A DNA stretch of 64,000 nucleotides, from positions 248,001 through 312,000 of the forward strand of contig NZ_QPIE01000001.1 in the NCBI RefSeq assembly GCF_003336205.1. The letters are read 5' to 3'. Below are positions 46,169-60,014 of the stretch, piece after piece. Position numbers and translations under genes: made by a program. The stretch is from Chryseobacterium lacus. GTDB lineage: Bacteria > Bacteroidota > Bacteroidia > Flavobacteriales > Weeksellaceae. Numbering within the stretch: position 1 is the first letter of the stretch; each line of letters begins with the position of its first letter. The notes beneath the pieces are model-generated. The model was not told where the DNA came from and did not search any database. It was given only the letters and a program-made list of their open reading frames with translations.

Positions 46169-49100
46169 TTATTCTTTAATGAATTTCCGCTGAGCAGATT
46201 GACCATTTTTAGCTTCAATATTGATGATAAAAATACCATTAATTAATCTGCTAACATCAATCTTGTTGCTGAAAATACCTCCAGATTGAACCAACTGGCC
46301 AATGGCACTGTAAATGGTATATTTAGAACCATCTTCAACTCTGGTAATATTCAGAACATTTTTCACAGGGTTTGGATAAATTTGAATTTGAGTCAGATCC
46401 AGAATATTGGTAGCTAATGGTTTTACAATTCTTACGTTGTAGTCTTCCACTTCTCCAAATTCAAACACGGAACACATTTCTGGCGAGCTGGTTCTGCTCA
46501 TCGCTACTCTCATCACAACAAATTTATCTAATGTGAGGCTGGCGTAGGCGCTTGCAGGGACACTAAAGGTTCCGGATACATTCGCTTCTGTATTTGGCGG
46601 CGTCATCAATATTCTTTCGTCATTGGTAAATAATCCATCTCTGTTAAAATCAATCCAGACAGTTACTGCGGCATTTCGCGGTGTTCCATTCCATGATTTC
46701 GTTATAGAAATCTGATTATTATTAGATCCTTGTAGTAAAACGATAGATCTGGTTATATCTCCTACATAAGAAGTATAATTGGATGCACCCGAGTTACTGT
46801 TCATTTCTGCATTTCCAAAAGGTTTAACATTAACATTGGAAATATGTTCCGCTGAACTGTCGGTGGAGCCCATTCCACAATAGTTTAATCCTGGAGTAGT
46901 GAATACATAAGGATCTGTAAAGATCTGAGTTCCTCCATTACACACATTCGCAATCTGGACTTCATATTGGGTTTCTTCTGTTAATCCGGTGATGATGTAA
47001 TTATTAACCGACACAGGAGCAGAAGTCCATCCTGCGGAAGATCCTACTTTTCTCCATCTGACAATGTAAGTAGCACCGGGAACTGCATTCCAGTTTACCT
47101 GAGCCTGAGTCATGGTAAGATTGGTAATGGATAATCCGACCGGAGCCATTTCACAAGTGGAAAGCGTTGTAAATACTTTCGGGGTTGTATAAATATTATA
47201 GGTAATGGAACAAGCAGAAGCTATTCTCACTTCATAATTCGTATACGGCAATAGCCCTGAAATCGTATAAGAGTTTGTATTTACATTGACAACTGTCCAT
47301 GTGGTTCCACCTACTTCTCTGTACTCTAATGTGTAGGTAAAAGGAATCATCGGATCCCAGGTTACAAGCGCTGAAGATGAAGTAATATTATTAACTGTTA
47401 ATCCACTTGGCGGGACAGGGTTACATTCTGTGGTAAACTCAATATGCGCATACGTTCCTTCTACTCCCTGACATACTGCAGCAACTTCAACCTCATACAA
47501 TTGAGATGAAATAAGGTTACTCAAATCAATGGAATTAGTAGTTGCCGGCCACGGTGCAGCAGGAACCGGAATAACAGAAACCCAACCTGTTGTTCCTACA
47601 GGACGGTATCTTACTACATAAGAAGCGCCGCCAATATCCTGAGGCCAGGTAATAGTAGCCGTGTTATGCGTAATAGCAGAAGCAACCGGTAATGGTGCTG
47701 TATTATTACAAATTACAATCATCACATTATCTACAGCCGCTGGAGGATTAGTTCCTGCGGAAGCATTATTTCTCCATTCAAAAACAACCCGCATAGTTTC
47801 TCCAGCAAAACTGCTTACGTCTAATGCCGGATCTTCATATGTCTGCCAGGTATTCTGCAGTTGGAAATTACCGGCAATAGGAATTCTTCCCGGTGCAGCA
47901 GCAGTTTGTGTTCCGGCAACCGGCATATAATCAATCGGCACCAGCCATACTCTCATATAATCATTATTGTTTTCTCCATCTGACTTCCAGTCGAATTTAA
48001 AAGTAACGGTAGTAGTTCCTGGAGGTATGATAATATCTCTGTACGCCTGTACTACACTTGGTGCAGTGATGGTATACTCATTAGCTGCTCCGTTATTATT
48101 GGAGATATAGATCGCATTGGCAGGATTTCCCGTTGCTGAACCGTATGCCCATTTATTTGGCTGCGACCCGTTAATAAAACCAAAATCATTAGGTCCCGTA
48201 AAATTCTGAATATACGGAATAGTAGCCGGAATCTGGTCTGTTGTAAAATATCCTCCCGAGACCCAGAAACTCGTATCGCCCGGACCACAATTGGAACGCA
48301 CCCACCAGTAATAAGTGGTGTTAGGAGTAAGCCCAGTGACGTTGTGTGGCGAACTTGCCGCAGAACCTGTAGGAGCGGTAGTTGGCGTAGGCGGAATATT
48401 AGATGGTGATAGATAGTAATGATAACCTTGAGCAGGTGCAGGTACTGCTGCCGTCCATGATAGTGTTGCTGAAGTGGAGGTTATATTTGAAGATGCTAAG
48501 TTGGATGGTGGCACTCTACAGGCATTTACCGAAAAATTAATATTATCGATCGCCGCAGGAGGCTGGGTTCCAGTTGTTGCATTATTTCTCCATTCAAAGA
48601 CCAAACGCATGACACCAGTAGTAGTTGCAAAGCTGAAAACAGGCACGTTAGTATTCAGATAGGTCTGCCAGGTATCTTCCAATTGGAAATTTCCTCCAAT
48701 TTGAATTTTACCACCCCCCGCTGTCAATGCTGCACCTGGAACAATAGTATGAGAAACCGGCACCATCCATACCTTGAAATAATCCTGTCCGCTCTGTCCT
48801 TCAGATTTCCAGTCGAACATCAGTGAGCCAAGGGTAGATCCGGTAGGAATTATAATATCACGGTAAGCATGCGCATAACTTGTGGAAGTAATCGTATAAG
48901 CATTGGATACTCCATCGTCATTTGAAATATAAATTGAGTTTGGCGGATTTCCTTCTGCGGCACCGTACGCCCATTTATTTACTTGATTCCCAACAAAAGT
49001 AAAATCGTTAGGACCTGTAAAGCTTTGATGATAAGGCACAGGAGCCGGTATCTGTCCGGTAGTAAAACTTGGTCCCGGTATCCAGATGCTTCTGTTTGTT

Positions 49101-50749
49101 GTGCTACATGCTGCGCGAACCCACCAATAATAAGTTGTATTTGGTGTTAAACCAGACACTGCGGCAGGTGAAGACGGAGAAGTACCTGAAGGAACCGTGG
49201 CTGCAGTTGGCGGCACATTGGAAGTTGAAATATAATATTGGAATCCGTTGGCCGGTGCTGGACTTGGTCCGCTCCATGGCAAACTAACAGAGTTCGCAGT
49301 AATAGCAGTTGGAGATGAAGTAGTCGGTGCCAAACAAGTATGCACTAAGAAATTAATATTATCAATAGCTGCTGGTGGATCGTTAAAAACCGAAGTATCA
49401 TTTCTCCACTCAAATACCAAACGGACAATACTTCCTGCAAACGAACTGAGATTGACTGATTGGTTAATATAGGTTTGCCAGTTCGCCTGTTGATTAAAAT
49501 TAGAACCTATTTGAGTTCTGCCTGTGCCGGAAGTTATCTGGGTGCCTGCAGTTGGTGTAAATGTGGTTGGTACCAACCATACTCTAAAATAATCATAGGT
49601 ACTTTCTCCTACAGCTTTCCAATCAAACATCAACGTAGCAAGATTAGTTCCTGCAGGGACGGCAATATCTCTATACGCCTGTACAACTGATGTCGTATTG
49701 GAATACGTGTTAGTCAATCCATCATTATCCGAGATATAAATAGAGTTGGCCGGATTACCAGCTGCTGATCCATAAGCCCATTTATTGGGTTGTGTTCCGT
49801 TTATAAAACCAAAATCGTTAGATCCGGTAAAAGACTGCACATACGGCATAGTAGCAGGAATCTGGCTGGTACTAAAACTGTCACCTTGTATCCAAGCAGT
49901 TTTATCTGTTGCTGAACACACAGAACGCACCCACCAGAAATATGTGGTACTGGGCGCTAACGCCAGCACTGCTGAGGTAGCCGTTGTGGCTGTTCCTGCT
50001 GTAGTTGGCAATGGAGGTGTATTGGTAGTAGTAAAATAATACTCATAACCCTGGGCCGGAGCAATCGCTGGTGCGTTCCAACTGATTGTCGCAGCAGTAG
50101 CAGTTATATTGGTAGGAGTCTGAGGAGTGGGAACAAAACAAGTAGGCGCTTGCAAAACCTGAACTTCATCCAATAAAACATTATCATAAAAATACCCATT
50201 ACCTGCAACATCTTTGTCAACCGTAAACCTTAATTGAATCGTTGATCCAACATAGGACGCAGCTAAAGGTATTCCTACCGTTCTCCATTCATTTGAGTTG
50301 GTACTATTGGCCCATATCTGTACCCATCCACTACCGTCATTCACATGAACTTTCAATTCATTATTATCATAGCTCGGAGGTGTTGTACCTGTTGATGACG
50401 AAAGATGATTTTTAAACCATTCAAACTGAACATAAGGTACAGTTAAGCCCGTCAAATTTATTTGGGGAGAAACAAGTTCAACATTGTGAATATTAGCGTA
50501 AGGTGAAGAAGCATCTACCCAAGCATATGTTCCTGCTGGTTTGCCATTGTTCGTAGTACCATAATCGGGAGCTCCTGAAAACCTCCATAACGCATAAGTA
50601 GATGTAGAAACGGGATTCTGGTTCGTCCAGCATGGAGGCAAAACTCCCGTACTAAAGGACTGTTGAAACGGCACCGTAACAGGAGGGCAAGCTTGTCCTG
50701 ATACGTGAGCCATGAATCCCATAAATAGCATTAATAAAAATTTCTTCAT
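46169..50749 (-). CDS. Giant modular T9SS-secreted protein with FN3, jelly-roll and GEVED domains
   Basis: A 1526-residue secreted protein. It has a signal peptide (MKKFLLMLFMGFMAHVSGQ) and a MAM-like jelly-roll at about 20-200 (PPCWTNQNP...FYDNVLLDEVQVL). Three near-identical modules of some 270 residues follow (about 203-470, 471-745, 745-1015). Each is an FN3 domain (PxTTYYWWVRSxC) joined to a jelly-roll (NKWAYGSAxGNPxNSIYIS...FEWRN...PPAAIDN). Three more FN3 domains come next, then a GEVED domain (about 1290-1440, VEDYNVRIV) and a type A T9SS sorting domain (IYPNPVKNVLNI...RKFIKE). It looks like an adhesin or polymer-binding protein; no catalytic motif is seen. Single gene with its own terminator. 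Confidence 0.85.
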   Translation of the reverse strand: MKKFLLMLFMGFMAHVSGQACPPVTVPFQQSFSTGVLPPCWTNQNPVSTSTYALWRFSGAPDYGTTNNGKPAGTYAWVDASSPYANIHNVELVSPQINLTGLTVPYVQFEWFKNHLSSSTGTTPPSYDNNELKVHVNDGSGWVQIWANSTNSNEWRTVGIPLAASYVGSTIQLRFTVDKDVAGNGYFYDNVLLDEVQVLQAPTCFVPTPQTPTNITATAATISWNAPAIAPAQGYEYYFTTTNTPPLPTTAGTATTATSAVLALAPSTTYFWWVRSVCSATDKTAWIQGDSFSTSQIPATMPYVQSFTGSNDFGFINGTQPNKWAYGSAAGNPANSIYISDNDGLTNTYSNTTSVVQAYRDIAVPAGTNLATLMFDWKAVGESTYDYFRVWLVPTTFTPTAGTQITSGTGRTQIGSNFNQQANWQTYINQSVNLSSFAGSIVRLVFEWRNDTSVFNDPPAAIDNINFLVHTCLAPTTSSPTAITANSVSLPWSGPSPAPANGFQYYISTSNVPPTAATVPSGTSPSSPAAVSGLTPNTTYYWWVRAACSTTNRSIWIPGPSFTTGQIPAPVPYHQSFTGPNDFTFVGNQVNKWAYGAAEGNPPNSIYISNDDGVSNAYTITSTSYAHAYRDIIIPTGSTLGSLMFDWKSEGQSGQDYFKVWMVPVSHTIVPGAALTAGGGKIQIGGNFQLEDTWQTYLNTNVPVFSFATTTGVMRLVFEWRNNATTGTQPPAAIDNINFSVNACRVPPSNLASSNITSTSATLSWTAAVPAPAQGYHYYLSPSNIPPTPTTAPTGSAASSPHNVTGLTPNTTYYWWVRSNCGPGDTSFWVSGGYFTTDQIPATIPYIQNFTGPNDFGFINGSQPNKWAYGSATGNPANAIYISNNNGAANEYTITAPSVVQAYRDIIIPPGTTTVTFKFDWKSDGENNNDYMRVWLVPIDYMPVAGTQTAAAPGRIPIAGNFQLQNTWQTYEDPALDVSSFAGETMRVVFEWRNNASAGTNPPAAVDNVMIVICNNTAPLPVASAITHNTATITWPQDIGGASYVVRYRPVGTTGWVSVIPVPAAPWPATTNSIDLSNLISSQLYEVEVAAVCQGVEGTYAHIEFTTECNPVPPSGLTVNNITSSSALVTWDPMIPFTYTLEYREVGGTTWTVVNVNTNSYTISGLLPYTNYEVRIASACSITYNIYTTPKVFTTLSTCEMAPVGLSITNLTMTQAQVNWNAVPGATYIVRWRKVGSSAGWTSAPVSVNNYIITGLTEETQYEVQIANVCNGGTQIFTDPYVFTTPGLNYCGMGSTDSSAEHISNVNVKPFGNAEMNSNSGASNYTSYVGDITRSIVLLQGSNNNQISITKSWNGTPRNAAVTVWIDFNRDGLFTNDERILMTPPNTEANVSGTFSVPASAYASLTLDKFVVMRVAMSRTSSPEMCSVFEFGEVEDYNVRIVKPLATNILDLTQIQIYPNPVKNVLNITRVEDGSKYTIYSAIGQLVQSGGIFSNKIDVSRLINGIFIINIEAKNGQSAQRKFIKE

Positions 50750-50981: not shown

Positions 50982-52202
50982 TTATTTCTTTACAAACTTG
51001 AGTGATTTAATAAACTCACCCTTCATATAGGCTCGTACATAATAAACTCCCGCTGGTAATTCACTTACTTCTATTTTTGTAGTTTCATCTTTTCTCAGAG
51101 ATTTTTTCACTAAACGTCCTTCGGAATTAAAAATATGAAGTTCATCGATCTTCACCTGTCCTGAAACTGAAATATATTGTGTAGTAGGATTCGGAAAAAC
51201 AATCACGCTGTTCATCATCTCCACATCGCTTACCGACAAAACAGTACAGGCATTACTATTGAGTAAACTTGCCCTTGGCCCCATAAGCGCATTTCGAGTA
51301 ATTGTTTTTTGATTATTGGTAAACATGGCCATTGCTCTGTCATCTACATAATCCATATAATTCATGAACATGGCTCCATGTGCAGTGGGAGTACACATAT
51401 AAGTATTATTCGGATACGTGGGTGCCCCGTAATAAGGATTAAACGTTGCTGGAGTATCGGCACAATAATCAGTATTTGCCGGACTTCCACAGGTAGAGTT
51501 ATCATCGCCCCAGATATGATCCAGTCCAAAATAATGGCCAATCTCATGGGTAGCTGTTCTTCCCTTATTATAAGGATATTGTGCTGTACCTGTGGTTCCG
51601 AAACAAAAATATCCAATGGCTAAACCGTCAAATGGATATCCTGCAGCACCGGGCTGATATGCCCAACCCAAAAGGCCTCCCGTAACATTTCCCACCCAGA
51701 TATTCAGATAACGCGTTGGATCCCAAGCGGCAAGTCCTGAAGCAGTGTAATAATTATTATTGAAGTTGAAACTAGCGGCTACAGATTTCCTTTGTACCCC
51801 TGTGGTCGGGTTCCCATTAGGATCTACCGTTGCCAAACAAAAAACCAGTTCCATATCGGATGCAAATGATTGGAAATAAGGAGGAACTGCTGTGGAGAAA
51901 TCAGTATTTAATTTTCGGAAATCAGCATTCAGGACCGCCAATTGTGAATCAATCTGAGCCTGTGAAATATTCATCGTTGTATTGGAATACAAAACATGTA
52001 CAACTACTGGAATGGTAACAACCGTTTTCTTGGCCTGGAATTGATGCTCTGTATTCAAAAAGTTCCTGAGATCCTGACGCTTAGCCTTTTCTGTGGGGTT
52101 TGCATTATAAAATTCTTCCATTTTTTGCGGAGTTACACATACTCTCTGCGCCGCTACCGACACCACTAAGGTAGAAAACAAACCAATTAATATTTTCTTC
52201 AT
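50982..52202 (-). CDS. T9SS-secreted zinc metalloprotease, M43 (pappalysin)-like
   Basis: A 406-residue secreted protease. It has a signal peptide (MKKILIGLFSTLVVSVAAQ) and an N-terminal region with IPVVVHVLY and ISQAQIDSQLAVLNADFRKLN, as in M43 enzymes. The zinc site HEIGHYFGLDH (about 216-226) is followed by IWGDD, and the Met-turn lies in FMNYMDYVDD. A type A T9SS sorting domain ends it (IVFPNPTTQYISVSG...GVYYVRAYMKGE). The frame is open 45 codons further upstream, but TATCTTTG (complement of 52214-52221) lies inside that stretch, so the ATG at 52202 is the start. Divergent from a small lipoprotein gene, an arrangement repeated at 52917-56399. Confidence 0.9.
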   Translation of the reverse strand: MKKILIGLFSTLVVSVAAQRVCVTPQKMEEFYNANPTEKAKRQDLRNFLNTEHQFQAKKTVVTIPVVVHVLYSNTTMNISQAQIDSQLAVLNADFRKLNTDFSTAVPPYFQSFASDMELVFCLATVDPNGNPTTGVQRKSVAASFNFNNNYYTASGLAAWDPTRYLNIWVGNVTGGLLGWAYQPGAAGYPFDGLAIGYFCFGTTGTAQYPYNKGRTATHEIGHYFGLDHIWGDDNSTCGSPANTDYCADTPATFNPYYGAPTYPNNTYMCTPTAHGAMFMNYMDYVDDRAMAMFTNNQKTITRNALMGPRASLLNSNACTVLSVSDVEMMNSVIVFPNPTTQYISVSGQVKIDELHIFNSEGRLVKKSLRKDETTKIEVSELPAGVYYVRAYMKGEFIKSLKFVKK

Positions 52203-52213
52203 AAATTTTTTTT

Positions 52214-52221
52214 CAAAGATA
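52214..52221 (-). promoter_or_regulatory. -7 box of the M43-type protease
   Basis: TATCTTTG on the minus strand, 11 bp before the ATG at 52202: a very short leader. It fixes the start codon. Confidence 0.5.
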
Positions 52222-52379
52222 AATTTTTCTTCTTTCAGTTTATAATATTCTTCGATTTTTAAGCCTATCATATTTTTAAAATAAAATATCACAAAGAAAC
52301 ACATTTGAAAAAAATAGCTATTCCTGTCTAAATTCATCCCTTTTATACTTACTTTTATAGCTTGATAAATGAAGAAAAC

Positions 52380-52841
52380 ATGAGAAAGCTATTTGTAACA
52401 CTACTGCTTTTTGGGCTGGCATTCAGTTCCTGTAATTCTCAAAAAAATGAAAAAAACGCCCAGCAGTATTCTAAAAACACACCTGCAATTGTGAAAATTG
52501 AACTATCGGAGCGTACCAGAGGACACTCACGATCCATTTCCGTCACTCCAGAGATGACGAAAATAACAGTCAATCGTCAGGAAAATAACAGCCGTCAGGA
52601 TAAAGAATTATGGGACAAAATAACAGCCGAAACCCAAAAAATTGACGTGAAAAACATTGCGAGTTTCCCTGCGCCTTCGGAAAAGCGCCGTGTGGATGCT
52701 GCCTTAGCGTCATGGATTGTCATCACCACCAAAAATGAAACGTATTCATCAGTTTCGTTTGATTCCGGAAACCCTCCTTTAGAACTGAAAGCATTGTATA
52801 AAATACTGTCCGCCCAATTCAGTTCAAACGAAAAGGAATAA
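52380..52841 (+). CDS. Small lipoprotein A, paired with the M43-type protease
   Basis: A 153-residue lipoprotein of unknown function: signal peptide MRKLFVTLLLFGLAFSSC with lipidation at the Cys. The mature part has IELSERTRGHSRSISVTPEM near the start and ASFPAPSEKRRVDAALASW and SFDSGNPPLELKALYKIL near the end. The same order of motifs is found in the protein at 55944 (TRGSRRMIVITP, SFTPPTNKRFYDGAMAA, TFDAGNPPEQLATLYRKL), so the two are paralogs. Each is divergent from a T9SS metalloprotease gene. A role as an inhibitor or folding partner of the protease is only a hypothesis. A TTG six codons upstream exists; the ATG is preferred. Confidence 0.65.
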   Translation: MRKLFVTLLLFGLAFSSCNSQKNEKNAQQYSKNTPAIVKIELSERTRGHSRSISVTPEMTKITVNRQENNSRQDKELWDKITAETQKIDVKNIASFPAPSEKRRVDAALASWIVITTKNETYSSVSFDSGNPPLELKALYKILSAQFSSNEKE

Positions 52842-52865
52842 CATTACATTCAAAAATCACTGATC

Positions 52866-52900
52866 AAAAAAGCCGCTCCACAATCGTGAAACGGCTTTTA
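52866..52900. terminator. Bidirectional terminator between lipoprotein A and the second protease
   Basis: AAAAGCCG (52868-52875) pairs with CGGCTTTT (52892-52899), with inner CAC/GTG pairing. A6 lies on the left, so the minus-strand hairpin ends in six T; the plus strand ends in four T. Confidence 0.75.
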
Positions 52901-52916
52901 TCTTAAAGATTAATTC

Positions 52917-55826
52917 TTATTTTTTAATAAACTTCACACTTCCATTGAAGTCTTTATCCGCAATGGTAATAATATAATTACCTACAGTAAGCCTGGAAAC
53001 ATTCACTTTATTATCTTTCACTGTGCCGGTATCCACGATCTGGCCTATGGCATTATGAATCTGATAAACCGCTTTATCGGACACTTTGGTAATATTCAAA
53101 ATATCAGAAACAGGGTTCGGATAAACTCTGAAATCATCTTTTCCAACTTCCTGTGTGGACAAACCTGTGGTAACCATCACAGTATAATCTTCTACTTCTC
53201 CATAAGCACCTAGTGCCGAAGTCATACAAGGATAAAGCTGATAAGTGGCACCCGCCTGACCGTAAAAAGAAATCACTCTCATTCGGTAAGGGATATTCTC
53301 TACAGCAATTGTAGGAACAGAGAATGTTACCGAGGCAACCCCTGTACTGGATGGGCTATTCATAATAACTTCCTCAGGAATATCTCCGAAAGTACCATTA
53401 GCATTATAATCAATATAAGCCTGCACTGCATTCGGATAAGGTGTTCCGCCCAGCCATCCTTTGGTTACAGCTAAGGTGTATTGCTGGCCAGCTCCTTTCA
53501 CAAGATTAATTTGTAATGCAGGATCATTAGTGTAATTAGAATAGGTACTGGCACCAGAACTGTTATTAACGTTAGCCAATGTTACATTTGCAATATGATC
53601 ATCTGTTGCATTTGCTGAAGAAGCACTACAGTATACAAGAGTTTTAAACGTCTTTGGCGTTGAGTATGCTCCTGTAACTCCGGAGCAAATGGCTGCAACT
53701 TCAACTTCATACATGGTATTATTGGTCAGTGCAGATAAAGTAACCGGTGAATTACTAAAAGAGCCTGTTTGCCAAGCTGTTTGTCCCACCACCCTGTATC
53801 GCACAATATACGTAGCACCTAACATTGGATTCCAAGAAACCGTTGCTTCAGAACCTGTAACACCTGAAATCATCACGTTCTGAGGAGCAGAACCATCACA
53901 GTTAGAATAGGTCACAACGTTCACGGATTGCACAGCATAGAACACATTATTAATTGCTGAAATTCTTAATTTAATAGTTTGCCCATTTAGAGACGCTGGG
54001 AAAGATAATGCCTCTGAACCATCATTTGGAGTAGATGCCGCCAAAACTGTCCAGGTAGCACCATTATCCGTCGTATAATCTATTTTCACATTGGCAACAT
54101 TGTAAGGAGCCACATTGGTTCCTACCACATCCCATGAAATCACCGTCGGCGCATTGGTGTTTGCATTTTGGGTGTTTATTTTAAAGGGGCCGTTATTTCC
54201 AACATTAATAATCTGCTCCGCACTGTTAGTCTGCTGTTGTGCGGGATTAGGATGATTGTCTCTTACCGTAACAACAAAATTAAGAGTTCTGGCTACATTG
54301 GATACCGTTTCCCAATTCGCTTGAGAAGTTAAGTTTCCATTCAGCACTTCACTCAGTCTCGGGAAATACCTTGTAGGAGATGTGGAAGGCAAAACAGATC
54401 TGAAAATAGGTTTTGTGGTACTGGTTGGATCAACATTCGTGGATGGAGATGTGGCGCTGTTAAACTGTTCCCATGTATAGGTTAACGGATTATTTTCCGG
54501 ATCTGTAGCTACAGCCGTCAGCGCAAACGCAGTCCCTTTAGGAATCGTGTAGGTAGGCAATGCTTGAATACTTGGAGGATTGTTTGCTATCGGTGTTTCT
54601 ACATCGCAAGCTTTGGCATTCAGATTCTGCTGAACCTGTATGATACTTGCCACGTGAAAATATGCATCTGCATGGTTCTGTACATTCGAAGTAGTAATTC
54701 CGGCATAACTCATAATGGTTGAACCAGAACCTGGCTCCATATTAGTACCCGTACCTTCCAAATTCATGGAAAAAGTGTGGGTTGCTCCCAACTGATGTCC
54801 CATTTCGTGGGCAACATAATCAATATCAAATGCATCTCCTTGAGGCACAGTACTGCTGGTAAAAGCCGAACCTTTAGCTGTAGAATTGGCATTTGCAGGA
54901 TTAACACAAATACATCCAATACATCCTGCATTCCCGTTTCCTCCAGATTGCCCGAATAAATGTCCAATGTCATAATTTGCATTACCTACCACGTTGGTCA
55001 GGGTTTGCTGCAGCTGTACATTCCAGTTATTTTGGCTGGTATAAGGATCCGTACCGGGATTCAAATAAATGATCGCAGGGAAATTCTGCAGATTAAGATG
55101 CAATGCGAAATCTTTTTCAAAAATCCCGTTCACGCGTGTTAACGTAGCATTGATTGCAGATAAAGCACCTGCAACGGTTCCGCCATGATACTGCGTATAT
55201 TCTCCTGTAACGGATACCGCCAGCCTCAGCGTTCTGTATTTTTTATCGGAGCTTTTTGCAAAATCGGTCGGATTATGAGAAAAAGTACTTCCATTCTGAT
55301 ATAAAGCATTCATTTGAGCCTGAGCAGCTGAACCTTCTTCGGTAGAACACACGAAGCTGCCTTTTTCCGGATCTATCGTTTTGTAATGCACTCCATAAAC
55401 AGTTTTATCAGCGTTCATCGGAGAAATAAATTCATACTTGCCGTTTTTGATAATCATCGACTGAAAATCTACCGGGGAAGTGCTGAATCTGATATATTTG
55501 GAAGGATCATCCAACCCCACTCCTACATAAGATCCTAAATCATACTGAACCGCAAGTTCTTTGTCAACAACAGGGAAACTGTATACGGTGAAACGCTCCA
55601 CTTTGCCGTCCATTGTAGGTATAGAAACCTGTACGCCTATCGATCCTCTGCCCATTTCGGGAGCATTTTGAAGTTGCGATTTCAGCGTATTCATGTCTAA
55701 TGTGTAAAATTGCCGTACATTAGAGTCTTCGATTTTAGTTTTTTCTCTGTGATTGGTTTTTGTCCATTGTGCATTGGTAAGTCCAAAACTTAATGCCATA
55801 AACAAAAATGCAAACCTTTTTTTCAT
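52917..55826 (-). CDS. T9SS-secreted reprolysin-like metalloprotease (M12B type) with GEVED domain
   Basis: A 969-residue secreted protease. The signal peptide MKKRFAFLFMALSFGLTNAQ leads into a propeptide-like region (RVQVS-type beta sequence, 30-190). The catalytic domain has HEMGHQLGATH near residue 340 and the Met-turn TIMSYAG. FN3-like domains follow (about 420-520 and 650-740, SEATVSWNPMLGATYIVRYRVVG), then a GEVED domain (about 745-890, AYGEVEDYTVMV) and a type A T9SS sorting domain (VYPNPVSDILNITKVS...GSVKFIKK). Domain order resembles other Flavobacteriia reprolysin-like proteins. It is divergent from lipoprotein B, 117 bp away. Confidence 0.9.
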   Translation of the reverse strand: MKKRFAFLFMALSFGLTNAQWTKTNHREKTKIEDSNVRQFYTLDMNTLKSQLQNAPEMGRGSIGVQVSIPTMDGKVERFTVYSFPVVDKELAVQYDLGSYVGVGLDDPSKYIRFSTSPVDFQSMIIKNGKYEFISPMNADKTVYGVHYKTIDPEKGSFVCSTEEGSAAQAQMNALYQNGSTFSHNPTDFAKSSDKKYRTLRLAVSVTGEYTQYHGGTVAGALSAINATLTRVNGIFEKDFALHLNLQNFPAIIYLNPGTDPYTSQNNWNVQLQQTLTNVVGNANYDIGHLFGQSGGNGNAGCIGCICVNPANANSTAKGSAFTSSTVPQGDAFDIDYVAHEMGHQLGATHTFSMNLEGTGTNMEPGSGSTIMSYAGITTSNVQNHADAYFHVASIIQVQQNLNAKACDVETPIANNPPSIQALPTYTIPKGTAFALTAVATDPENNPLTYTWEQFNSATSPSTNVDPTSTTKPIFRSVLPSTSPTRYFPRLSEVLNGNLTSQANWETVSNVARTLNFVVTVRDNHPNPAQQQTNSAEQIINVGNNGPFKINTQNANTNAPTVISWDVVGTNVAPYNVANVKIDYTTDNGATWTVLAASTPNDGSEALSFPASLNGQTIKLRISAINNVFYAVQSVNVVTYSNCDGSAPQNVMISGVTGSEATVSWNPMLGATYIVRYRVVGQTAWQTGSFSNSPVTLSALTNNTMYEVEVAAICSGVTGAYSTPKTFKTLVYCSASSANATDDHIANVTLANVNNSSGASTYSNYTNDPALQINLVKGAGQQYTLAVTKGWLGGTPYPNAVQAYIDYNANGTFGDIPEEVIMNSPSSTGVASVTFSVPTIAVENIPYRMRVISFYGQAGATYQLYPCMTSALGAYGEVEDYTVMVTTGLSTQEVGKDDFRVYPNPVSDILNITKVSDKAVYQIHNAIGQIVDTGTVKDNKVNVSRLTVGNYIITIADKDFNGSVKFIKK

Positions 55827-55851
55827 TTTTTTATTTTAATGGGTAATTTTG

Positions 55852-55916
55852 CAAATATATATAAATTTACAGAATGGAATAAATTTGATGATGTTTATAT
55901 TTTTGATTTAATTTTG
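55852..55916. promoter_or_regulatory. Divergent promoters of the M12B-type protease and lipoprotein B
   Basis: Minus strand: TATATTTG (complement of 55852-55859), 25 bp before the protease ATG. Plus strand: TTTG (55884-55887), a 21-bp spacer and TAATTTTG (55909-55916), 27 bp before the lipoprotein ATG. The two promoters are back to back within 65 bp, so one regulator could control both. Confidence 0.55.
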
Positions 55917-55943
55917 CTCCATAATTATTAAAGTTTCTATTCT

Positions 55944-56399
55944 ATGTATATAAAATCTTTTTTTCTTGCGTTTTTTACGCTGCTGCTGTTGCATTGTAAT
56001 GCACAAAAAAATAATGATTCATCAAATGCAATAACTGAAAAATCATCGGATCGCCCTTTTCAAAAAATAGAACTGGAAGAAATGACCCGCGGATCGAGAA
56101 GGATGATTGTGATAACACCAAACTTTAAAGAGGTTGAAATTAACCGGAAAATTACCACTCTTAAAACAACGGAAACGGAATGGAAAAACCTTCAAAAGTT
56201 AATTACCCAACTGAATCCGGATAAAATAGAATCCTTTACTCCTCCCACCAACAAAAGGTTTTATGACGGAGCGATGGCTGCAACTATAAGGGTAAACATT
56301 GATGGTACAGTTTATTCTTCACAAACTTTCGATGCCGGAAATCCTCCCGAACAACTGGCCACTTTATATCGCAAATTGGTTTCGTCTTTTAAAGAATAA
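55944..56399 (+). CDS. Small lipoprotein B, paired with the M12B-type protease
   Basis: A 151-residue lipoprotein: MYIKSFFLAFFTLLLLHC gives the lipidated cysteine. The mature part carries TRGSRRMIVITPNFKEVEINRK, then SFTPPTNKRFYDGAMAATIRV and YSSQTFDAGNPPEQLATLYRKL. These align in order with the protein at 52380, with which it is paralogous. Its stop is one base from the stop of the convergent DUF6048 gene at 56401, with no room for a terminator. Function unknown; see the findings for the protease-pairing hypothesis. Confidence 0.65.
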   Translation: MYIKSFFLAFFTLLLLHCNAQKNNDSSNAITEKSSDRPFQKIELEEMTRGSRRMIVITPNFKEVEINRKITTLKTTETEWKNLQKLITQLNPDKIESFTPPTNKRFYDGAMAATIRVNIDGTVYSSQTFDAGNPPEQLATLYRKLVSSFKE

Positions 56400-56400
56400 G

Positions 56401-57060
56401 TTAGAAATGATACGCCAGATTCCACATAAATCCGAAGTTGAATTTCCCTGAGCTCTGCCCAAAACCCGGAACCACCATAGGCTGGATATCCTCCTGCTTC
56501 GTAGAGAATATCAGGTATTTCGGCTGCACATTCACATCGATGTAGAAATTGCTGGAAAAAAGTTGTACCCTTCCACCAATTACCGCTTCTGCCCAATACG
56601 AAGATTGCGAAGACGATGGAAAAGATTCAAATGAACTGCTGCCGCCAAATCCACGGATCGGAACCGCACGATATTCCTGATGATAAAAAGAGGCCGCCAA
56701 TTTAGCACCGGCATAGAAACCATTTTGCGCATGTTCAGGATCTCTCATCAGCATATAAAACCCGCCTATTTTCACAAAAGGGCCATTTACCTCCGCATCA
56801 TATCCGTTTTTCTGATAAATATTCTTCTCAAATCCTGCATCTGCAACAGCGTGCAGTCTTTCTTTCAACCTAGTGGAAACAAATCCCTGATACACCTTTC
56901 TTTCCGAAAAAAAGGAAATTCCGGCATTCAGCACATCAATGCCAACCATGAAATTAGGATCGTATCGCCATTTTTCTTTCTGCTGTGTTTCATTTTCCTG
57001 CGAAAAGCCCAATGCAAAAAGAAAGCTAAAAAAGAAGAAAAAGATGCGTTTTGTTCTCAT
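56401..57060 (-). CDS. DUF6048 family outer-membrane-type protein
   Basis: A 219-residue protein with a signal peptide (MRTKRIFFFFFSFLFALGFSQ). Its beta-rich mature part (GIDVLNAGISFFSERKVYQGFVSTRL, FVKIGGFYMLMRDPE, GFYAGAKLAASFYHQEYRA) ends FMWNLAYHF, with alternating pattern and C-terminal aromatic, as in small outer-membrane barrels. The family usually lies beside DUF6452 and rlmD in Flavobacteriia, as here. It overlaps the DUF6452 gene by 35 bp. Function unknown. Confidence 0.75.
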   Translation of the reverse strand: MRTKRIFFFFFSFLFALGFSQENETQQKEKWRYDPNFMVGIDVLNAGISFFSERKVYQGFVSTRLKERLHAVADAGFEKNIYQKNGYDAEVNGPFVKIGGFYMLMRDPEHAQNGFYAGAKLAASFYHQEYRAVPIRGFGGSSSFESFPSSSQSSYWAEAVIGGRVQLFSSNFYIDVNVQPKYLIFSTKQEDIQPMVVPGFGQSSGKFNFGFMWNLAYHF

Positions 57061-57499
57061 TTATAATTTCATTTTGAGCATTTTCAATCCCCGGAACGGG
57101 GCCAACAGTTATGATTTCCGAAGAAACATTTTCATACAGTTTTCTGATACCACACGCTGGCGACACATATTCTGTTTTATCGTTATATTTTACTCGGATC
57201 TGAGATTTAATCCCTTGTTGCGACGTACTGATATAAAGGTCTGTAAAACCATGATCATCTACCCGCAACGGGACAAAAACCGAGTCCGTTGCCGTTCTTC
57301 TTTCAATCACCGGAACCACTCCGTTACCATAATCTACACTTACGAAAAGAGAATCCATTGTTTTGGGTTTTCCGGTAGTATAGGTTTTAAATTTAATCTT
57401 CATTCGAGGCGTCCCTTCACCTCCGGCACAAATATCATCATCCGTACTGCAGGAAAACAGAAAAAGAAAAACAGCAAAAAACAGAACGGCGGTTCTCAT
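57026..57499 (-). CDS. DUF6452 family lipoprotein
   Basis: A 157-residue lipoprotein: MRTAVLFFAVFLFLFSC is the signal with lipobox FSC, then STDDDICAGGEGTPRMKIKFKTY. The mature part is a predicted beta sandwich with SLFVSVDYGNG, SVFVPLRVDD and a conserved Cys in YVSPACGIRK. Position next to DUF6048 supports the family call. The frame is open 25 codons further upstream inside the protease gene, but the signal peptide defines this start, 4 bp after the protease stop. Confidence 0.75.
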   Translation of the reverse strand: MRTAVLFFAVFLFLFSCSTDDDICAGGEGTPRMKIKFKTYTTGKPKTMDSLFVSVDYGNGVVPVIERRTATDSVFVPLRVDDHGFTDLYISTSQQGIKSQIRVKYNDKTEYVSPACGIRKLYENVSSEIITVGPVPGIENAQNEIINENKTHLFLLF

Positions 57500-57503
57500 C
57501 TTT

Positions 57504-60014
57504 TTAATTATCAGGATCCAAAGCTTTTTCCAGCCTGTACACGAGATCTTCATAATGGTATGTCGTAATTGCATTATCGGCCGGCATAGATTTCAATTCA
57601 TTTTGCAGGGTGTTCAAAGTACCACGAACTACTGCCTTAACATCCGAATTATCGGAGATGCTTACCGATCTGAAAAAACGGGAAGAAGCTGCTGCGGTTG
57701 GCTTCGCATTCAATAAATCTATCATAGAACCAACATAGTTCCGCTGAAGATTTCTTCTGAAAAGATCAGGTTCAGCAGTGAACATCATCTGTTTCAAATC
57801 ACTCATATATTCAATAACAGGATAGGCATTTGGGTCTGCCGTGGAAGAGAGATACATCATCTGCACGACGGACGGACTCAGAATTCGGTTCAAGACACTG
57901 TTCTGAAGTCTTTCCACCACCTCAACAGATGACTTTCCTGTCTTCTCAAAAATTTCATTCCTCAAAAGCCATTCCGGGGTTTGAAAAATATTTTCGTTCA
58001 GAAACTGCAATGCTTCTTTCTGTTCAGACTTTGGAACCACTTCGTACACCGCGCCTTCCTGTTCAATATTCTTAGGCGTTTCTGTCTGTCCGCCGATATA
58101 TTTTGAAACATGGCCTAGATATCTCCCGAACTGTCCTGTAACCTGATCATACATTAAGGAAAGGTTTTCGTAATCTTCGTTGGGCTTGGCAGTCCATTTC
58201 TTCAGATTATCCATAATTCTGTCTAGGTTTTTGATTCCATATCTTCCAGCGATCATCGGGTTATCGCCCACCTGTTCGCTTTGCAGGCGCGGATCAAACT
58301 GATTGCTTTCGGTACCGAAATGCAACCTTGGATCTTTCAGTTTATTGATCACCCATTTATTTAGGTGCGCTTTTTCCTTTTCAGGTGAAGAGTATTGATA
58401 GAATCTTCTGTATCCCCATTCTATTGCCCAATCATCATAATCTCCAACTCTGGGCATAATTCCCTTATCTCCTACTTTATCTTCCGGCTGTGCAACGTAA
58501 TTAAATCTCGCATAATCCATAATAGAAGGCGTGTGTCCGTTCTTTTCCAGCCATTTTCTGTCTCTGAGTTTCTCTACAGGAACAGCGTTGCTGGCGATGA
58601 AATTATGTCTCAACCCTAAAGTATGTCCCACTTCATGAGCGGAAACAAAACGAATAAGTTCGCCCATCAGTTTTTCATCGAAATCTAACCTTTGTGCTCT
58701 TGGATCATTAGGAGATGCCTGAACGAAATACCAGTTTCTAAGCAGCATCATCACATTGTGATACCAATTAATGTGGCTTTCCAGAATTTCTCCGGTTCGC
58801 GGATCGGAAATGGACGGTCCCGAAGCATTGGGAACATCGGATGGTTTATAAACAATAGCCGAATATCTCGCATCTTCCAGGCTCCATTCCGGTTCATCCT
58901 TCGCGTTGGGAATTTTAGCATAAATGGCATTTTTAAATCCGGCCTTCTCAAAAGCTTTCTGCCAATCATTGACACCCTGCATCAGATAAGGAACCCATTT
59001 CTTAGGTGTGGCAGGATCAATATAGAAAACAATCGGTTTCGCAGGTTCTACCAGTTCGCCTCTTTTATATTTTTCCAAATCCTGAGGTTTCGGTTCCAAG
59101 CGCCATCTTTTAATTAAAGAAACTCTTTTCACGCCCTGAGGATCGAGATCAAAATCCGTATAGCTTACGGTAAAATAGCCCACTCTCGGGTCATAATATC
59201 GTGGCTGCATTTTATTTTCCGGCAAAAGCACCAGCGAGGAATTGATTTCCACTGTATAATTTCCACTTACTTCCGGCTTTTCCGTTCCGGGAGGAAAAGT
59301 CATGTTGCCTAAGGTTCGTGCGAAGGTTTTGGTAGTATTGAGCTCAATATTGGTTGAAAACGACCGGATGAAATTCACATAAGATTTGTCCTTTTGGAAG
59401 GCTCCGACTTTATATCTTTTCTTCACCGTCGGGGAAAAGGAAACCAGTTCATTATCGGCATTGATTAAATCTGTAATATCTACAACGGAAGATTTCTTGT
59501 CCTTTCCGAAAGCTTTGATATCGAATGCATGAATAATTGCGTGGGTATTGTTCCGCATCACCGAATTGTACATCTGCGAAGTAGAATCGCTGGCGTAATC
59601 TGCATAGGAAACGGAGCGGATAAAGATCTTATCGTTCGGGCCTTTTTCAAAGGAAATAAGGTTTTGTCCTATCTGGTCGCCGGCGTAACCTGTTGTTCCG
59701 GATCTCATGCCTGCCGCAGCTTTGGTAAGGCGGCTCACCAGAAGAAATTCTTTTCTCAGAACGGTATCGGGAATTTCAAAATAATACTTATCTTCTACTT
59801 TATGTACCGTGATGATGCCCTCGTCCGTAGTTGCTTTCTCAGTGATGACTTCCTTATACGGTTTTATCTTCTCTGGTTTTTTATCTTTTGCCGCAGCGGC
59901 AGATTTCTTTACGGCAGCGGTATCGGTTTTGGCCTTTAAGGTATCTTTTTCCTGCGCCGGCGCAAAGGTTACCAAAGAGAATAAAGACAATAAAAGTATT
60001 CGTTTGAAATTCAT
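57504..60014 (-). CDS. Zinc-dependent metalloprotease, DUF5117/DUF5118 type
   Basis: An 836-residue exported protein. It has a signal peptide (MNFKRILLLSLFSLVTFAPAQ), a low-complexity Ala/Lys linker, and a DUF5118-like and DUF5117-like beta region (about 60-300, FEIPDTVLRKEFLLVSRLTKAAAG and SYTDFDLDP). The catalytic domain has HEVGHTLGLRHNF at about 456-468 and the distal SIMDYARFNYVA. Unlike the other two proteases in the window, it has no T9SS sorting domain, so it is probably periplasmic or surface-held by another route. Substrate unknown. It is the first of three same-strand genes with DUF6452 and DUF6048. Confidence 0.9.
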   Translation of the reverse strand: MNFKRILLLSLFSLVTFAPAQEKDTLKAKTDTAAVKKSAAAAKDKKPEKIKPYKEVITEKATTDEGIITVHKVEDKYYFEIPDTVLRKEFLLVSRLTKAAAGMRSGTTGYAGDQIGQNLISFEKGPNDKIFIRSVSYADYASDSTSQMYNSVMRNNTHAIIHAFDIKAFGKDKKSSVVDITDLINADNELVSFSPTVKKRYKVGAFQKDKSYVNFIRSFSTNIELNTTKTFARTLGNMTFPPGTEKPEVSGNYTVEINSSLVLLPENKMQPRYYDPRVGYFTVSYTDFDLDPQGVKRVSLIKRWRLEPKPQDLEKYKRGELVEPAKPIVFYIDPATPKKWVPYLMQGVNDWQKAFEKAGFKNAIYAKIPNAKDEPEWSLEDARYSAIVYKPSDVPNASGPSISDPRTGEILESHINWYHNVMMLLRNWYFVQASPNDPRAQRLDFDEKLMGELIRFVSAHEVGHTLGLRHNFIASNAVPVEKLRDRKWLEKNGHTPSIMDYARFNYVAQPEDKVGDKGIMPRVGDYDDWAIEWGYRRFYQYSSPEKEKAHLNKWVINKLKDPRLHFGTESNQFDPRLQSEQVGDNPMIAGRYGIKNLDRIMDNLKKWTAKPNEDYENLSLMYDQVTGQFGRYLGHVSKYIGGQTETPKNIEQEGAVYEVVPKSEQKEALQFLNENIFQTPEWLLRNEIFEKTGKSSVEVVERLQNSVLNRILSPSVVQMMYLSSTADPNAYPVIEYMSDLKQMMFTAEPDLFRRNLQRNYVGSMIDLLNAKPTAAASSRFFRSVSISDNSDVKAVVRGTLNTLQNELKSMPADNAITTYHYEDLVYRLEKALDPDN

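Follow-up and report, generated by a model that had tools for sequence, protein, structure and literature searches.

LipA and LipB, two small lipoproteins encoded beside metalloprotease genes in the window (the whole stretch of 64,000 nucleotides that was analysed), are candidate cognate periplasmic guards or inhibitors of the neighbouring enzymes, a function to which we assign, from sequence and gene linkage, a probability of about 0.6. Since the pairing recurs at 14 different places in related bacteria, these small lipoproteins would probably act as guards until the enzymes have left the cell.

The locus contains two T9SS metalloprotease genes, each lying divergent to a small lipoprotein gene, and their open reading frames, strands and coordinates agree with the original prediction. 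The features are as follows, with coordinates given as positions within the window:

50982..52202, minus strand: M43 (pappalysin-type) metalloprotease with a T9SS type A sorting tail, 406 aa, assigned by Pfam and PDB matches
52203..52379, no strand: divergent intergenic region A, with the -7 box TATCTTTG at 52214-52221 towards the protease
52380..52841, plus strand: LipA lipoprotein of the putative DUF6438-sister family with predicted Mago fold, divergent partner of the M43 gene
52917..55826, minus strand: M12B reprolysin-like metalloprotease with fn3, GEVED and a T9SS sorting tail, 969 aa
55827..55943, no strand: divergent intergenic region B, with back-to-back -7 boxes
55852-55859, minus strand: region B box towards the protease, TATATTTG
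55909-55916, plus strand: region B box towards LipB, TAATTTTG
55944..56399, plus strand: LipB lipoprotein, LipA paralog with predicted Mago nashi fold, divergent partner of the reprolysin-like gene

LipA and LipB are paralogs, as had been proposed (35% identity in a 133-residue alignment, E 4e-25). Both contain all three of the motif blocks that they were said to share, the first reading TRGxxRxIx[VI]TP. A search of the whole genome (2.38 Mb, 31 contigs) revealed exactly two copies of the lipoprotein family, LipA and LipB, and exactly one M43 gene, together with one strong reprolysin and a weaker one elsewhere. LipA starts at the ATG at 52380, and 52202 is a likelier start of the M43 gene than the first ATG of its open reading frame (52337), because a signal peptide (MKKILIG...) is found there and a TAnnTTTG box lies just upstream, at 52214-52221. 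The locus also holds a third metallopeptidase-like gene (57504-60014, minus strand), a DUF5117/DUF4953 met-zincin with HEVGHTLGLRH and without a T9SS tail, which is kept near the lipoprotein/protease pair in many relatives. Adjoining the pairs is the gene of a T9SS protein of 1526 aa (46169-50749, minus strand) that contains six fn3 repeats as well as a GEVED domain and has C-terminal domain types in common with the reprolysin-like protein.

The back-to-back boxes anticipated within 55852-55916 could be located exactly, at the two positions listed above. Of 77 divergent intergenic regions, 83% have a TAnnTTTG box some 23 nt upstream of the protease start (15% in shuffles) and 23% have one towards the lipoprotein (8% in shuffles); region A has no clear -7 box towards LipA. 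The lipoprotein promoter is not generally of the TAnnTTTG type, and joint control of the divergent pair is possible.

Both protease types that had been claimed are borne out by Pfam, each with a Por_Secre_tail above cut-off. The product of 50982-52202 matches M43 (E 2.3e-12) and Por_Secre_tail (8.6e-11), and that of 52917-55826 matches Reprolysin_4 (1.3e-39), GEVED (1.6e-13) and Por_Secre_tail (6.4e-9). Among PDB sequences, ulilysin (5.7e-67) and mirolysin (5.8e-63; PDB entry 7od0 carries its sequence) match the window M43 across its catalytic domain, and the mirolysin match, 284 residues long, begins at residue 19 and therefore covers the pro-segment too. HEIGHYFGLDH (HExxHxxGxxH) and MNYMDYVDD, the Met-turn with the S1' Asp, are shared in this comparison. 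Judged by these matches, the window M43 is a relative of ulilysin and a close one of mirolysin, which is among the KLIKK proteases of Tannerella forsythia.

Lipoprotein homologs were gathered from 320 genomes of the same family, 80 named contigs and 395 genomes of the order. It had been proposed to check whether such homologs are scattered without protease neighbours, and the idea survived this check: the gene immediately 5' codes for an M43 or M12B-like protease in 98 of 161 distinct homologs, and at least one lipoprotein/protease pair is found in 14 of 15 separate genomic contexts (loci grouped by common flanking genes). The neighbour is divergent in 83 of the 98 paired homologs (69 with a T9SS M43, 13 with an M12B-like protease, one with a short M43) and co-directional in 15, where an M43 lipoprotein gene comes first; in the other 63 homologs this position holds no protease. 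None of the 23 members of a control family, DUF6438, lies beside an HExxHxxGxxH protease, and the pairing of the lipoprotein with proteases is beyond chance (14/15 unrelated contexts versus 0/23). Among the linked pairs there are proteases of two unrelated types, two orientations of the genes and two routes of export. The linkage is to metalloproteases and not to the T9SS as such, because the partners vary (T9SS M43, T9SS M12B-like, M43 lipoprotein) and the lipoprotein is what they have in common.

Among the co-directional loci, the gene order in Tenacibaculum is infB, M43 lipoprotein gene, partner lipoprotein gene, and nine genera of the Flavobacteriaceae have the order sufS, M43 lipoprotein, Lip, sufE; in the genus Flavobacterium, Lip occupies the same suf place and the protease has been lost or was never there. 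Across the Flavobacteriaceae, the lipoprotein gene has its place within the suf operon, between sufS and sufE, whether or not the M43 gene is present (L271-L310), and one lipoprotein partner is preceded by two tandem M43 lipoprotein genes on the same strand (L281:5026-7614).

Across Chryseobacterium, the lipoprotein and the 670-aa M43 occur together in 86 genomes, the lipoprotein only in 32, the protease only in 8 and neither in 47, giving an odds ratio of 16 (p 2.6e-13) that is uncorrected for phylogeny. The lipoprotein diverges fast, with a median identity of 40% versus 68% for the catalytic domain of the protease, and inhibitors often evolve fast. Strong coevolution of lipoprotein and protease beyond shared descent was considered and rejected, the correlation between their trees being weak (partial r 0.13-0.19) once the flanking DUF6048 and DUF6452 genes were used as controls. 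These two genes (56401-57060 and 57026-57574, minus strand) flank the pair in the commonest context of the family.

Export signals distinguish the two partners. A lipobox-like Cys is present in 159 of 163 lipoproteins, both window copies among them. Acidic residues after the lipidated Cys constitute a lipoprotein export signal (LES) to the cell surface in Bacteroidota (PMC5080379). No acidic residue occurs at +2..+6 in 132 of the 159 lipoproteins, the window copies reading CNSQKN and CNAQKN, and one to three occur there in all 15 M43 lipoprotein partners (e.g., CQDEDT, CSDDSN, CDDDKS), most of which have a LES-like signal weaker than the published consensus. Since the proteases have T9SS tails or LES-like signals and the lipoproteins have none, in every arrangement the protease is probably exported and the lipoprotein probably retained on the periplasmic side.

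Protease and lipoprotein can each be found without the other. Thirteen genomes (8 of Chryseobacterium and 5 of another genus) keep an intact 670-aa M43 of the same type and in the same place without the lipoprotein anywhere in the genome, and tblastn detected no lipoprotein remnants beside these genes. These genomes weaken a strict sense of immunity or antidote, against which the many unpaired lipoproteins also speak. A general job had been foreseen for the lipoprotein, and in this respect the data are best read as pointing to a periplasmic guard or inhibitor (98/161 homologs, 14/15 contexts), with immunity in the strict sense less well supported. The same genomes bear on an unlikely alternative, namely that the lipoprotein is a steric chaperone or foldase that would aid the protease in folding or in reaching the exporter without inhibiting it. 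Such a chaperone would leave the same genetic linkage as a guard and would explain how one family serves unrelated metzincins with a common catalytic core, but it is hard to reconcile with an M43 that does without the lipoprotein in 13 genomes and with orphan lipoproteins that persist without an adjacent client; a T9SS-specific chaperone would, in addition, be at odds with partners that use two export routes (T9SS tail and lipoprotein signal).

On the tree, the orphan lipoproteins imply a minimum of 11 label changes. At two loci (L099 and L166) a broken M43 gene lies adjacent to an intact lipoprotein gene, a snapshot of the protease being lost first. Other M43 genes in the genome were rejected as an explanation of the orphans: they exist in 19 of 20 genomes with orphans, and are uninformative because they also exist in 27 of 35 lipoprotein-less controls. 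Self-protection against the proteases of kin or neighbours, in which the lipoprotein would mainly be a shield and its own protease only the commonest source, is quite unlikely. It would account for the repeated retention of orphans without an adjacent protease, for the Arg-Gly turn described below that 62 of 63 of them retain, and for the two loci with a broken M43 gene; the predicted periplasmic side is, however, a poor place for meeting proteases from outside, and the occurrence of other M43 genes in orphan genomes and controls alike does not decide the matter.

As regards the kinship of the lipoproteins, no Pfam or NCBIfam family reached its cut-off with LipA or LipB, a Pfam search gave no match to inhibitor families, and a sequence search of the PDB gave no match. 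Against DUF6438 (PF20033), with a gathering cut-off of 30 bits, LipB scores 13.7 bits and LipA has no score, and weak matches appear in 37 of the 82 members of the family alignment used for this comparison (best E 4.7e-4). Alignment of the lipoprotein profile with 23 DUF6438 proteins by hhalign gave a probability of 96% (P 1e-9). These profile comparisons make DUF6438 a distant sister of the family, which is itself outside Pfam. Both are Bacteroidota lipoproteins with distant sequence kinship, but the window copies fall below the Pfam cut-off and are without the CFGxCP motif, and the DUF6438 genes are unlinked to HExxHxxGxxH proteases in the 23 loci examined. The sister family may have protease pairs of its own. 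At two DUF6438 loci (L201:183-1848 and L217:190-1839), the gene follows, at a distance of 1-3 bases, a gene for a Peptidase_Mx-like lipoprotein, with HEFAH and HEFGH, respectively.

The predicted structure of the mature domain has pLDDT means over 10-residue blocks of mostly 95-97 from residue 41, with about 70 at residues 101-110, and a topology of four strands, two helices, two strands and one helix (beta4-alpha2-beta2-alpha). Its best structural matches (Foldseek, VIA-align) are Mago nashi/Magoh chains, with Z 10.6-11.2 over 106-109 residues and an rmsd of 3.0-3.4; the next fold follows at Z 4.7. At a Z of about 11, the model has the Mago fold. The predicted fold is thus the same as that of Mago nashi/Magoh of the exon junction complex, but identity is 10-11% and compartment and kingdom are others, and no function is therefore transferable. 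Pfam gave no sequence match to the Mago family for LipA or LipB, nor is there one among the 25 families listed for the 82 members. In the literature search, a bacterial Mago fold was unreported and nothing on point was found for DUF6438 either. Three homologs have an added N-terminal META (HslJ-type) domain (L293:5006-5824, L294:4533-5354 and L295:5011-5802), supported by Pfam in the first and the last; no natural fusion of lipoprotein and protease was seen among the homologs, which have META-domain fusions instead.

In the predicted structure, strands one and two are joined by a turn that carries Thr-Arg-Gly. All 86 lipoproteins with an M43 partner retain Arg-Gly, as do 62 of 63 orphans, but among the 14 with an M12B-like partner 5 do, and four have Met in place of Arg. 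Because orphans keep it too, Arg-Gly does not in itself indicate pairing. On the protease side, a simple motif for the S1' Asp matches 81 of 86 M43 partners and no M12B-like partner, and it has been described that pappalysins take Lys or Arg in S1' via a conserved Asp (PMC6949598). The correlation between Arg-Gly and partner type depends on roughly 4 to 6 evolutionary events and is not significant in a tree-based independent-pairs test. These sequence patterns suggest that the Arg of the turn may serve as bait for the S1' pocket of M43 proteases. In the mechanism that we propose, the lipoprotein would sit in the outer membrane facing the periplasm, bind the protease in transit through this compartment and block its active site, which would keep enzyme that strays or is activated too early from damaging the envelope. 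With M43 partners, Arg49 of the turn (LipB numbering) would enter the S1' pocket that holds the conserved Asp. M12B-like partners are without this Asp, and in their lineages Arg-Gly has often disappeared or been exchanged, in four cases for Met.

A P1' cleavage site is an equally possible role for the conserved Arg, and the lipoprotein encoded upstream of mirolysin is cleaved by this enzyme, with its peptide found in the cleft (PMC6949598). Both points favour a substrate, processing partner or sensor, cleaved, for example, to signal, over an inhibitor. We regard this as very unlikely, since that T. forsythia lipoprotein belongs to a group reported as specific inhibitors (PMC7296668) and a small, compact and well-conserved fold suits a binder more than a disposable substrate. 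Inherited linkage without functional meaning would fit the largest context (48 loci), where the linkage is old and shared, but is highly improbable given pairs in 14 of 15 unrelated contexts, with three protease kinds and two orientations, against 0/23 for DUF6438. Beyond the guard function itself, it is conceivable, though rather doubtful, that the Mago-fold family predicted here constitutes a new structural class of metalloprotease inhibitors, spread through Flavobacteriales, whose Arg-Gly hairpin turn would block pappalysins and would have been changed to suit M12B-like enzymes, and whose members would often be kept alone as a shield.

The original prediction held that no system of this form had been described, and this is incorrect, because potempins have been described and the window M43 is close to mirolysin. 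The potempins of T. forsythia, small lipoproteins whose genes lie beside those of T9SS proteases, are described as specific inhibitors of the neighbouring enzyme; these proteases are of several families, the M43 mirolysin being one of them, and some strains are without the partner (PMC7296668, PMC4404884). A potempin gene lies in front of its protease gene, in the same orientation, and potempins have no significant sequence similarity to one another (PMC4404884). The LipA/LipB family resembles them in consisting of small lipoproteins (159/163 with a lipobox-like Cys) whose genes adjoin those of secreted proteases, as in 98 of 161 homologs. Potempins are beta-barrels of the OB or up-and-down type, and the fold predicted here is alpha/beta and Mago-like; no potempin is among the structure-search matches listed, outside which a kinship of fold may still exist. 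The present family is either divergent (83) or co-directional with the protease first (15), in neither case directly preceding it on the same strand, and here one homologous family serves unrelated proteases. Because gene order and this single family for unrelated proteases differ, and the predicted scaffold probably does as well, we place it, on these comparisons, outside the potempin family.

If LipA and LipB are indeed guards, the potempin principle of one lipoprotein guard per exported protease would be a general device of Flavobacteriales and not a peculiarity of one oral species, and the guard would have been invented on a second, apparently unrelated scaffold, bacterial reports of which were not found in the literature. 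It would also open to testing the question of how exporters of aggressive metalloproteases keep their own periplasm safe, and provide both a prediction for one specific residue, Arg49, and a protein family of potential natural metalloprotease inhibitors.

A second parallel is provided by AprI and BamI of Pseudomonas aeruginosa, inhibitors encoded beside the metzincins AprA and Mep72; partners of this type are thought to suppress the metzincin until secretion, and bamI relieves the toxicity of mep72 in E. coli (PMC4334185). LipA and LipB likewise are adjacent-gene partners of a metzincin, but the proteases, secretion systems and gene order are others, and the lipoproteins have no Pfam inhibitor match. 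By analogy, the best explanation is that the system would work like potempins and AprI/BamI while, on the comparisons made here, standing outside those families.
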